Positions 2,057 through 15,505 of a DNA stretch of 35,404 nt are shown here, piece after piece. Source of the DNA: Thermoplasmatota archaeon (GTDB lineage Archaea; Thermoplasmatota; Thermoplasmata; Thermoplasmatales; Thermoplasmataceae); NCBI GenBank assembly GCA_023379435.1, contig JAMCUH010000017.1, positions 1 to 35,404 of the forward strand. Reading direction: 5' to 3'. Within the stretch, counting starts at the first letter, position 1, and the number at the start of each line of letters is the position of its first letter. The notes under the pieces are model-generated. The model was not told the origin of the DNA. It did not search any database and saw nothing but the letters and a program-made list of their open reading frames with translations. The position numbers and the translations under genes are program-made.

Positions 2057-2506
2057 ATGGCAGATGAAATGAAAGATTCCATGGTTATCAAAGTCAGTCA
2101 TCAACTTAAAGAGGTAATTGAGCAGGTGGCCGCAGCTGCCCAGGTATCAGAGTATGCAGTTATTGAAACCGTCCTGAGTTCCCTGATTGAATCAGTGAGT
2201 TTGATAAACGAGGGAATGAGTAAAAGGGAGTTAATAATGCAGATCCTGAAAAAGGATGGCGAGCTATCATGGTTGCGGTACAGAAACAATGAACTCCAGT
2301 CAGATAATCGGTACAGAAACAATGAACTCCAGTCAGATAATGAGAAACTTCTAATCAAGCTGAATGGATGCAGTTCAATGCTAAAGATATGTGAACGGTC
2401 AATTAATCGAAAGGTGCAATCCTCTGAGATGACATTCAATGGTGATTCCGGTCATTTTTCCCCGCAGGAGCAGGCCAAAATGGAGAAAAAGTACCTGAAA
2501 AAATAG
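2057..2506 (+). CDS. Hypothetical protein: possible RHH-like N-terminus plus coiled coil
   Basis: I do not recognise this 149-aa protein. Its N-terminus (SMVIKVSHQL, a helix rich in Ala, then SEYAVIETVLSSLIESV) has a strand-helix-helix pattern compatible with a ribbon-helix-helix DNA-binding domain, which is only a shape argument. The middle is a heptad-like, charged and Asn-rich region containing a perfect 11-residue tandem repeat (RYRNNELQSDN twice). The C-terminus is Lys-rich and polar. GAGGTGATG 5 nt or so before the ATG is a good ribosome-binding site. It stands alone between marC and a non-coding stretch, and a hairpin with a U run follows. A DNA-binding or scaffolding role would be a guess. 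Confidence 0.65.
   Translation: MADEMKDSMVIKVSHQLKEVIEQVAAAAQVSEYAVIETVLSSLIESVSLINEGMSKRELIMQILKKDGELSWLRYRNNELQSDNRYRNNELQSDNEKLLIKLNGCSSMLKICERSINRKVQSSEMTFNGDSGHFSPQEQAKMEKKYLKK
2276..2341 (+). repeat. Perfect 33-bp tandem duplication
   Basis: Two identical 33-bp units (2276-2308 and 2309-2341) follow each other without a gap. They encode the same 11 residues twice and keep the reading frame. The absence of any mismatch suggests a recent replication-slippage event, or that the copy number varies among strains. Confidence 0.95.
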
Positions 2507-11315: not shown

Positions 11316-12227
11316 ATGCCAAAGGAATACCTTGTTACCGGCGGAGCCGGATTCATTGGAAGTAATCTTGTGGAAAGACTGTCAAAGGAAGGAAAGGTAA
11401 CGATCATTGATAACCTGCATACAGGATCAGAAAAGAATCTTGAAGGTGCAAGGAAGGAAGTAGTTTTTGTTAAGGGCGATTCAGAGAACCTTGAAAGTGT
11501 CAGCGTCAGACCATCTGTCATCTACCATCTCGGGATATATTCAGCTTCTCCTATGTACAGGGAGAATCCTAAACTTGTTGGAAAAGTTATAAACGGCATG
11601 ATATCTGTTCTTGAACTTGCCAGAAAGAATGATTCAAATGTCGTTTTCGCATCCACATCTTCCATATACAATGGAGTGAAGCCACCACACAGGGAGGATA
11701 TTATTCCATCTGTTACTGATTTTTACACCGAGGCAAGAATAGGAGCAGAGAGAATTTCGGAGCTTTACAACAAGCTCTATGGCATCAACGTTCAGGCCAT
11801 GAGGTTTTTCTCCGTATATGGGTATCATGAGGATGAGAAAGGGGGATATGCAAACCTTGCAACGCAGTTCTTCAAGGAAATGAAAGAAAATAGGCAACCA
11901 GTCATATATGGTGATGGAAAGCAGAGGAGGGATTTTGTTTTTGTTGATGACGTCGTTGAAGCTCTTATCCTCGCATCATCTGTGAAGGGATTTAATGTTT
12001 TCAATGTTGGTTTCGGTAAAAATTATTCTCTCCTAGAACTTGTGGAGAAAATCAACGGTCTGCTTGGAAAAGACATTAAGCCCAAATTTATAGAAATGCC
12101 TGTAAAGAACTACGTAATGGAGACACTTGCAGATACAACAAAGAGCCAGAAAGTTTTGGGCTTCCGTGCAAAGATCAGCCTTGATGAAGGTCTGAGGAGA
12201 ATTAAAGAATACTACGATGCAAGATGA
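11316..12227 (+). CDS. NAD-dependent nucleotide-sugar epimerase/dehydratase (extended SDR)
   Basis: The 303-aa protein has the Rossmann motif TGGAGFIGSN (8-17), VVFASTSSIYN with the catalytic Ser/Thr position at T114, and the extended-SDR block FSVYGYHEDEKGGYANL. Relatives include UDP-glucose 4-epimerase and GDP-mannose 4,6-dehydratase. Unusually, the catalytic YxxxK motif reads Y137-T-E-A-R141, with Arg in place of Lys. It is the first gene of an operon with a heptose kinase (4-bp ATGA overlap) and a heptose isomerase, so its substrate may be a nucleotide-activated heptose or a related sugar for surface glycans. The substrate is inferred from neighbours only. Confidence 0.85.
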   Translation: MPKEYLVTGGAGFIGSNLVERLSKEGKVTIIDNLHTGSEKNLEGARKEVVFVKGDSENLESVSVRPSVIYHLGIYSASPMYRENPKLVGKVINGMISVLELARKNDSNVVFASTSSIYNGVKPPHREDIIPSVTDFYTEARIGAERISELYNKLYGINVQAMRFFSVYGYHEDEKGGYANLATQFFKEMKENRQPVIYGDGKQRRDFVFVDDVVEALILASSVKGFNVFNVGFGKNYSLLELVEKINGLLGKDIKPKFIEMPVKNYVMETLADTTKSQKVLGFRAKISLDEGLRRIKEYYDAR

Positions 12228-13239: not shown

Positions 13240-13815
13240 ATGGATTATATGGATCAGTATATTGAAGAGGGGGTGAGGGCGAGGAAAGCCATTTCCACAG
13301 GAATTGTGAGGGAGTTTGCAGGGTTGATGCTGGAAAGATTGTCAAAGAATGGTCTTCTTATCACCTTTGGCAATGGTGGTTCTGCTGCTGATGCACAGCA
13401 TTTCGCAGCTGAACTTAACGGACACTTTCTGAAGGAGAGAAAGGCGTTTCCTGCCATCGCACTCTCAACCAACACATCAACACTCACAGCAATAGGCAAT
13501 GACTACAGCTTTGATGCGGTATTCGAACGTCAGGTGGAAGCTTTCGTAACAAAGAAAGACATGGTGGTTGGCATAAGCACTTCCGGCAATTCCAGAAATG
13601 TTGTTTCAGCCGTTAGAAAAGCAAGAAAAATAGGTGCACTGACATTTTCAATGACCGGCGGAAATGGAGGATTGCTGAAAGATGTCTCCGAAAAGTGCTT
13701 CATTGCTGGAAGTGACAAGACGCCCATAATACAGGAAACTCACATCACGTTTATCCATATGGTTTGTGCCGAGTTTGATTTGCTTCTTGAAAAATCACAA
13801 AAAATAGAGCAATAA
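13240..13815 (+). CDS. gmhA: Phosphoheptose isomerase-like SIS-domain protein (GmhA)
   Basis: This 191-aa SIS-domain protein matches GmhA, which converts sedoheptulose 7-phosphate to D-glycero-D-manno-heptose 7-phosphate. Visible motifs are FGNGGSAADAQHFAAEL (with the His and Glu that bind zinc in GmhA), STNTSTLTAIGNDYSFD, GISTSGNSRNVVSA, and IIQETHITFIHMVC (carrying the second metal site Gln and His). ATG at 13240 is preferred to the TTG at 13231 because GAGGT sits 8 nt before it. It is 23 bp downstream of the hddA-like gene in the same operon. The nucleotidyltransferase (HddC) and phosphatase (GmhB) needed to complete the pathway are not in the window. Confidence 0.87.
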   Translation: MDYMDQYIEEGVRARKAISTGIVREFAGLMLERLSKNGLLITFGNGGSAADAQHFAAELNGHFLKERKAFPAIALSTNTSTLTAIGNDYSFDAVFERQVEAFVTKKDMVVGISTSGNSRNVVSAVRKARKIGALTFSMTGGNGGLLKDVSEKCFIAGSDKTPIIQETHITFIHMVCAEFDLLLEKSQKIEQ

Positions 13816-13844
13816 TTGTATCCTGTAAATATGGATCTGGGGAA

Positions 13845-13854
13845 GATTATTTAG
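13845..13854 (+). promoter_or_regulatory. TATA box of the cyclase-family gene
   Basis: GATTATTTAG is centred 26 bp before the ATG at 13876, consistent with a leaderless transcript separate from the sugar operon. Confidence 0.45.
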
Positions 13855-13875
13855 CACAATGCCATATCTTTTCCC

Positions 13876-14988
13876 ATGAGTGAATGGTTTGAGGATGATA
13901 GTCCCTGGTATCCTTCGAAATTTGGTTCTGACGACATTCTTGGCACATTGAATTATCTGAGTCCGGATAAAATTATATCTGCAGTGAAACTTGTCAGGCA
14001 TGGTCTTGTTATAAGACTTTCACACGAGATATACAACGGAATGCCGGGAAGAGACACACATGGCCCATTCTATTATCTGCATTCGCAGAGGGCATACGAT
14101 GTAAGGCCACCCTTAAGGCAGGCAACAAGAAACAAGTTTGGTGGCGCTCTATGCAGGATAGAGACATCCGATCACATGGCTACGCACCTTGATTCTCTGA
14201 ATCACATATCATTCGATGGTAAATTTTATAATGGCATCGACTCGTATGAAAACAGTACAGTATACGGATCATTGAAACTTGGTATTGAATCTGTCCCGCC
14301 GATCGTCACCAGGGGAATAGTTGTTGCTCTATTTTTTGTGATTGGTGGCGCATTATGCAGGATAGAGACATCCGATCACATGGCTACGCACCTTGATTCT
14401 CTTAATCACATATCATTCGATGGTAAATTTTATAATGGCATCGACTCGTATGAAAACAGTACAGTATACGGATCTTTGAAACTTGGTATTGAATCAGTCC
14501 CGCCGATCGTCACCAGGGGAATAGTTGTTGATTGCACGGACTCCGGTAAAATAATGGAACCGGGTGAACCCATCGCTGTGGAAAGGGTTGAGAAATTCCT
14601 GGATGAAAATGAACTGAAAGTGAGGGAGGGTGACGCTGTATTTTTCCACACTGGTGTTTCTTCATTCTGGAACAATCCTCAGAAATATAACACATACTAC
14701 GACAGATCCCCCGGGATTGGAATGGAACTTGCAAAATGGATCTCGGATCGCGGTGTATCCGTTACCGGATCAGATACGCCTGCCACAGAGGTTTCTCCTC
14801 CTGAAATTGATGGAACAAGGTTGCCTGTTCACCAGTATCTCATAACAAAGTCTGGTATTAGGCTCATAGATAACATCAACACACAGGAGGCAGCATCAAA
14901 GAAAGTGTACCAGTTTCTATTTGTATGCGCTCCGCTCAGGATCAGGGGAGCAACAGCATCTCCTGTGGTGCCGCTTGCAATATACTGA
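13876..14988 (+). CDS. Cyclase / kynurenine formamidase-like family protein with internal duplication
   Basis: The 370-aa product belongs to the metal-dependent cyclase family (PF04199, which includes kynurenine formamidase). N-terminal DDSPWYPSKFGSDDILGTLNYLSPDKI and C-terminal GSDTPATEVSPPEI and FLFVCAPLRIRGATASPV are typical of the roughly 300-aa members. The metal-binding motif DHMATHLDSLNHI occurs twice because a 204-bp segment (68 codons) is duplicated in frame. Removing one unit gives 302 aa, the normal length. The inserted block would repeat the core metal site with a hydrophobic junction ALFFVI, so activity of the product is uncertain. A TATA box suggests independent, leaderless transcription. 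The substrate is unknown. Confidence 0.82.
   Translation: MSEWFEDDSPWYPSKFGSDDILGTLNYLSPDKIISAVKLVRHGLVIRLSHEIYNGMPGRDTHGPFYYLHSQRAYDVRPPLRQATRNKFGGALCRIETSDHMATHLDSLNHISFDGKFYNGIDSYENSTVYGSLKLGIESVPPIVTRGIVVALFFVIGGALCRIETSDHMATHLDSLNHISFDGKFYNGIDSYENSTVYGSLKLGIESVPPIVTRGIVVDCTDSGKIMEPGEPIAVERVEKFLDENELKVREGDAVFFHTGVSSFWNNPQKYNTYYDRSPGIGMELAKWISDRGVSVTGSDTPATEVSPPEIDGTRLPVHQYLITKSGIRLIDNINTQEAASKKVYQFLFVCAPLRIRGATASPVVPLAIY
14138..14530 (+). repeat. 204-bp-period tandem duplication within the cyclase gene
   Basis: Copy 1 (14138-14326) and copy 2 (14342-14530) are 189 bp each with 184 identities by eye, separated by a 15-bp T-rich spacer (14327-14341). The period is 204 bp, so the frame is kept. 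All five differences are synonymous (GCT/GCA, CTA/TTA, CTG/CTT, TCA/TCT, TCT/TCA), leaving 62 identical residues in each copy. Confidence 0.97.
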
Positions 14989-15032
14989 CGTCACAATGGA
15001 AAAAAAGCTTTAGCTAATTCCGTTACAGTGAT

Positions 15033-15505
15033 ATGAACAAGGATCTTGGAAAGAAACTGATTTCCCTTGTGGCCTTATCCAGGAAGGGGAAGGAAAGCCT
15101 TGAATTGGGAGATTTCTTGAATTGGGAGATTTTGTCAAGGAACTTGCCTTCAAACGAAAGCTCCTTCCTGCAGAAGAGATTGAAAAATTCGTTAACAAAT
15201 CTGTTGAAAACAAGCTTTTGATTCAGGAAGGGGACAAATACAAGTCAAATTTTGTTGTCACGGAATATACCATTCCACTGGATTTCACTGTTGACCTCCA
15301 GGATCTGTACAGTGACAGGGAGAGAGATTTCCTGGACAGGGTCCTGGAAACCATAACCTCCAAAGGAAAAATAAAGGCTGAAGATGCATTGAAACGGGCC
15401 AAGGACCTGACCAGTTATTTGAGATATATTGACTTCAATATAGCCATTCTTGCAGTTGCCACAGAGGAGGGAATAAACGTGAAGGAGTACTTGGATGAAG
15501 TATAG
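15033..15505 (+). pseudogene. DUF2240 family gene disrupted by a 17-bp tandem duplication
   Basis: Two overlapping frames together make one archaeal DUF2240-like protein. The first half (from ATG 15033: MNKDLGKKLISLVALSRKGKESLELGDF) runs out of frame after the duplication and stops at 15221. The second half (VKELAFKRKLLPAEEIEKFV ... FLDRVLETITSKGKIKAEDALKRA ... AVATEEGINVKEYL) continues to 15505. Deleting one 17-bp unit joins them in frame as ELGDF-VKELAF, about 151 residues, the usual family length. The function of DUF2240 is unknown. The break may be real, a slippage-prone on/off switch, or a sequencing or assembly error. A truncated product could initiate at the GTG/ATG codons after 15110. 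Confidence 0.85.
15099..15132 (+). repeat. Perfect 17-bp tandem duplication causing a frameshift
   Basis: CTTGAATTGGGAGATTT occurs at 15099-15115 and again at 15116-15132 with no gap. Because 17 is not a multiple of three, the second copy shifts the DUF2240 reading frame. Confidence 0.97.

Follow-up and report, generated by a model that had tools for sequence, protein, structure and literature searches.

A doubled metal site in an archaeal Cyclase-family gene is very probably an artefact that joins strain variants

A Cyclase-family gene in a draft genome of a Thermoplasmatota archaeon reads as though it encodes its metal-binding segment twice, and the locus raises the question of whether the doubled segment belongs to the cell or to the way in which the draft was made. 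A sequence-only reading of the window (the whole 35,404-nucleotide stretch of DNA analysed here) had offered three answers: that both copies are under protein-level selection, that a segment of a diverged allele has recombined into the gene, or that two strain variants were joined in assembly. Here, the anatomy of the locus, its homologues, and the occurrence of comparable duplications across the source draft genome and its relatives are used to choose between them.

Results

The doubled block in the Cyclase ORF

The ORF (13876–14988, forward strand; Pfam PF04199, Cyclase) is open over 370 codons and encodes a predicted protein of 370 residues. It contains two forward-strand copies of a 189-nt block, at 14138–14326 and 14342–14530, with an offset of 204 nt and an identity of 97.4%. 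The in-frame duplication with 204-nt spacing is thus as it had been described, and position-by-position comparison upholds the description of the copies as differing at five sites (14148/14352, 14149/14353, 14199/14403, 14271/14475 and 14292/14496), all five of them synonymous. The predicted product was also said to hold two metal motifs, and DHMATHLDSLNH, carried by copy 1, does occur twice in the assembled ORF. For mutations falling at random on an unselected copy, the chance that five out of five would be synonymous was computed for the 189-nt block as P ≈ 0.0007–0.0018.

Homologues of the predicted protein

Against the PF04199 profile the predicted protein scores 101 bits (gathering cut-off 23.1), and the match spans residues 162–305 of the 370, starting at the second copy and running onward, with the first copy outside it. 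The nearest solved structure found by phmmer is the uncharacterised 5ibz_A (E = 2.7e-19); kynurenine formamidase (4cz1/4co9) is matched weakly. Assignment as a kynurenine formamidase was rejected on the score obtained with NCBIfam TIGR03035 (26 bits, against an equivalog cut-off of 223.05). The family score, the match to 5ibz_A and the presence of H-x3-H-x-D, which we take to be the metal motif of PF04199 Cyclase, all liken the window protein to this family; it differs in having two copies of the motif and 68 extra residues, where every aligned homologue has one motif.

This difference was examined at 34 homologue loci (L003–L036), of which 10 came from a scan of genome contigs and 24 from a family search; the search gave a match in 47 of 77 genomes, the source genome included, and the alignment took 34 loci rather than all matches. 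The loci encode 29 distinct proteins, there being five pairs of identical ones, and H-x3-H-x-D is present at all 34, as it is in the window protein. Alignment with homologues of about 302 residues had been proposed as a check on the duplication, and it returned a single copy at 34/34 loci, every one of them gapped across the 68 extra residues; a second alignment, of nine of these homologues directly with the window protein, gave the same gap. Nearly all of the aligned homologues are about 296–321 residues long (locus L004, read from an early ATG, extends to 468 residues and still has one motif), and the closest are about 60–66% identical to the window protein across the second copy and the C-terminal region. 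One motif per protein of about 300 residues is therefore the arrangement of the homologues and not that of the assembled ORF, which has two. No cyclase homologue was found in the only other genome of the genus (G001, 76% complete). An AlphaFold2 model of the 370-residue form, built with nine homologues, had a mean pLDDT of 46.6, too poor to weigh on a two-motif protein. The gene itself most likely encodes a Cyclase-family metalloenzyme of the ordinary kind, with one motif and about 302 residues.

A real duplication under selection would give a 370-residue protein with two metal motifs, both copies of which are kept by purifying selection, and it would account for the open frame and for five synonymous differences out of five at a neutral probability of about 0.001. 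It is opposed by the absence of a duplication from all of the aligned homologues and by the confinement of the Pfam match to residues 162–305, from the second copy onward.

The junction and its inverted linker

The copies are separated by a 15-nt linker (14327–14341, forward strand) that lies wholly within a 20-nt arm (14324–14343, forward strand), which reaches 3 nt into copy 1 and 2 nt into copy 2. This arm is the exact reverse complement of 13793–13812 (source on the reverse strand), where the upstream SIS-domain ORF ends, about 510 bp away; when extended, the arms match over 23 nt at 96%. Shuffling the junction 30-mer (n = 500) produced reverse-complement matches of at most 15 nt within the window. 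Against that background, the piece separating the copies appears to have been copied from the other strand, about 510 bp upstream, which is the signature of fold-back (copy-back). The sequence-only reading was sound as to the copies and overlooked this inverted upstream origin of the linker. The inverted junction, the nearby source and the short complementary stretch for priming, all present here, are features of copy-back and of the inverted chimeras made by multiple displacement amplification (MDA). When the 581-nt strand was folded as DNA the two arms could pair (z = −3.2), a result that fits fold-back yet is expected from the inverted repeat itself. Slippage or repeat expansion as the source of the duplication is ruled out by the linker, which is inverted upstream sequence, and by the differences between the copies.

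The same anatomy, a 20-nt inverted insert with 3-nt and 2-nt edge overlaps, is predicted by template switching at a replication fork in the cell. A fold-back copy followed by resumption at an earlier point, of the kind known from small inverted triplications or microhomology-mediated repair, would produce a real tandem duplication with an inverted insert, the copies later diverging or exchanging with another allele; the part of PMC13334657 drawn on here describes small inverted triplications from yeast and from cancer genomes. Such an origin would, however, call for five synonymous changes unaccompanied by any amino acid change, and presence of the duplication in independent relatives is not seen, all 34 homologue loci being without it.

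Surroundings in the window

The cyclase gene is flanked by the SIS-domain gene upstream and by a DUF2240 gene on the other side. A mobile element or a system of programmed diversification was considered, and no such gene is evident in the list of neighbouring ORFs; a promoter and terminator scan of 13700–15100 found nothing useful. A 17-nt exact tandem duplication (15099–15132, forward strand) shifts the frame at the N-terminus of the DUF2240 gene, a defect of the same class as that in the cyclase gene, and the DUF2240 domain lies in open frames of 155–196 residues in 18 other genomes, against 133 here. A second exact tandem duplication, of 33 nt (2276–2341, forward strand), falls within the ORF at 2057–2506, which has no Pfam match and in which RYRNNELQSDN is read twice; it may belong to the same class of artefact, or be a true repeat.

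Local duplications across the draft genome

The source draft genome (G000) comprises 1,149,446 bases in 59 contigs and is 68.67% complete. Local duplications of at least 60 nt with nearly abutting copies were counted in 490,772 non-N bases of it (the window included; some of the sampled stretches overlap, by about 2 kb in total) and in 1,143,135 non-N bases of seven other genomes of the family. The source draft yielded seven and the seven relatives none; if such duplications were equally frequent everywhere, the probability that all seven fall in the source draft would be about 0.0002 (arithmetic from the sampled totals). Lowering the threshold to at least 16 nt gave 10 in the source draft, nine from the census together with the pair in L040, which was probably missed there because of an indel; G001 has two short exact ones. 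Thirteen tandem-like rows in the control genome G021 are one regular array, which is below the 60-nt criterion and was not counted; this array (L174, G021:C1, 15–920) consists of repeats of about 30 nt spaced 66–69 nt apart and is CRISPR-like by look only.

The duplications fall on genes of various kinds. A radical SAM gene is split by a 101-nt duplication, an ABC ATPase gene carries one of 117 nt in frame, two others (239 nt and 297/298 nt) repeat gene boundaries, and a 29-nt duplication in contig C7 shifts a frame. Duplications of this kind, repeating gene boundaries or breaking genes (radical SAM, ABC ATPase), lie in L130 (G000:C33, 869–1346 and 1559–1789), L154 (G000:C5, 6276–6475), L040 (G000:C4, 12235–12822) and L119 (the end of G000:C7, 1607–1664). 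Of the eight duplications in coding frames, four keep the frame and four shift it (P = 0.26 for at least four, given one third), so selection for the reading frame is not apparent.

The matched blocks of the seven long pairs show 12 coding differences, of which 10 are synonymous and two nonsynonymous, the latter both in the 239-nt pair of L130; in non-coding DNA, the L040 pair differs by an indel and a single substitution. Differences that are mostly synonymous, 10 of 12, are the pattern that separate strains under ordinary purifying selection would be expected to show. Given that pattern, the five synonymous differences of the cyclase pair do not indicate that its two copies function together in a single protein. 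Not every join in the draft need be between strains: since two of the seven long pairs, along with all three short pairs, have no difference within the matched block, strain mixing alone leaves some pairs unexplained.

Damage to ribosomal protein genes

On contig C3 of the same draft, a 76-nt duplication (L039, 9525–9678, copies from 9525 and 9601) splits the ribosomal L4 gene into two frames, the parts of which match the archaeal L4 model at 2–202 and 177–249 of 251. No second L4 locus was found in G000, an assembly that at 68.67% completeness may be missing a copy. An L4 match was obtained in 11 relatives, and in 10 of them it lies in an open frame of at least 254 residues; the exception is a poor genome, G058. 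In that genome, L4 and S3 matches with in-frame stop codons lie at about 29328–31915 of contig C1, reflecting either an error-prone draft or true breaks. Within the limits set by the incomplete assembly, a defect of this kind in a sole copy of L4 is not expected in a living cell. Less than 1 kb beyond L4, the ribosomal L2 gene contains an in-frame repeat of 28 residues (L039, 10277–10446) with two synonymous differences; these residues occur once in 11/11 relatives and twice in the source draft.

Recurrence across the draft and in essential genes, irrespective of frame, is the behaviour of an artefact, and it is what the seven duplications, the L4 frameshift and the L2 repeat display; as a counterpoint, the cyclase copy happens to keep its frame. 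The L4 and L2 defects demonstrate that this draft yields such repeats without selection, and with the homologues single-copy throughout we regard a selected two-motif protein as scarcely credible. Template switching in the cell would have had to happen many times over in this genome and to frameshift the sole L4 locus detected there; it is the main rival to an artefact and an improbable one. We likewise think it improbable that the lineage has a replication or repair defect causing frequent fold-back template-switch duplications (several per 500 kb) and that one of these created a two-motif Cyclase. The joins in L4 and L2, and the absence of a duplicated homologue, favour the last of the three answers set out at the start, the joining of strain variants in assembly. 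The other two fare poorly: protein-level selection on both copies does not sit with the like joins in L4 and L2 or with single copies at 34/34 homologue loci, and recombination of a diverged allele does not sit with an L4 gene broken and an L2 gene altered by similar joins while homologues are single-copy.

A contig end with an inverted tail

Contig C3 ends in a 19-nt tail (L039, 12255–12273) that is the reverse complement of 11817–11835, 438 bp upstream. The tail is flush with the contig end and replaces the continuation of ribosomal S3: relatives continue -GFS-x-AK- (5/5 aligned), whereas the source draft reads GFSSYV and then stops at the end of the contig. Such flush inverted tails were found at 1 of 66 contig ends examined in the source draft and at 0 of 67 control ends, a count that leaves out a match in L133 (a run of N), two matches in the source draft (13 nt, not at an end) and one control match (11 nt); an apparent inverted repeat in L038, also a run of N, was disregarded. 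In the whole sample, the C3 tail and the cyclase linker are the only inverted exact matches of at least 19 nt within 1.5 kb.

Because the linker resembles the C3 tail in length and in distance from its source, a contig tailed in this way was probably attached to an overlapping one from another strain. In the first step, a DNA strand or contig of one strain would have terminated near 14326 and formed a fold-back. Its 3′ end (..TTGTTG) would have primed at an approximately matching site about 510 bp upstream, so that some 17–20 nt of the opposite strand were copied and an inverted tail, the present linker, was formed. In the second step, the assembler or scaffolder would have connected the tailed end with the contig of a second, slightly different strain, which overlapped it and started near 14138; with the overlap unrecognised, the shared 189 bp would have been kept twice with their strain differences. 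The all-synonymous pattern would then arise because the alleles had diverged in separate lineages before the join. We infer the order, tail and then join, from few cases (1 of 66 contig ends).

Assembly error by itself, with no chimeric molecule, would also connect contigs of two strains, the linker then being a wrong graph path or the product of gap filling. Other joins in the draft fit this, being blunt or almost blunt (0–3 nt of overlap or linker where measured), and duplicated overlaps at scaffold joins are published for metagenome assemblies in the part of PMC7111523 used here. A copied strand is nevertheless the simpler source of a 20-nt inverted piece from 510 bp away, and contig C3 carries a similar 19-nt inverted tail. 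We therefore give assembly error by itself a very small probability, and it is a variant of the explanation by tailing and joining, not its opposite.

Discussion

The doubled stretch consists of real letters in the deposited sequence that are, with high probability, artefactual as biology. On the strength of the junction, the homologues and the census, we are confident that the cyclase duplication would prove to be a combined artefact of library preparation or amplification and of assembly, joining strain variants, and not a feature of the cell. Because doubling of the same kind breaks essential genes elsewhere in the draft, the cyclase gene most likely does not encode a novel enzyme with two sites.

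A duplication that keeps the frame and differs only at synonymous sites resembles the outcome of selection on both copies and can arise from joined strain alleles. Two inexpensive checks that need no reads are suggested by this locus: scanning the neighbourhood for the linker's reverse complement, and inspecting the assembly's own single-copy ribosomal genes for repeats of this class. Caution is warranted with the gene calls of this draft for L4, L2, S3, the DUF2240 gene, the radical SAM gene and the ABC ATPase.

Three known systems bear comparison with the locus. As set out in the part of PMC7111523 drawn on here, metagenome-assembled genomes show local assembly errors, artificial concatenation, and overlaps duplicated where scaffolds are joined. 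The cyclase locus is like these errors in that overlapping flanks are kept twice at a join, or concatenated, in an uncurated draft; it differs from those described there in having no N gap, copies with strain-like single-nucleotide differences, and a linker that is inverted nearby sequence. Small inverted triplications, for which the consulted portion of PMC13334657 gives a mean DUP/IN/DUP of 148/160/148 bp with a 30-bp spacer, share with the cyclase locus a duplication with an inverted templated insert at its junction, whereas here the inverted part is 20 nt long and comes from 510 bp away, and the copies differ. For chimeras of MDA, the sections of PMC1855051 that we used report that more than 85% are inverted and that more than 70% of junctions were primed at 2–21 nt of complementarity. 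By sequence alone, the cyclase junction is like these chimeras in its inverted orientation, short priming overlap and local source; it departs from them, as they are described in those sections, in that its inverted piece is only about 20 nt long, after which the sequence reverts to the original strand.
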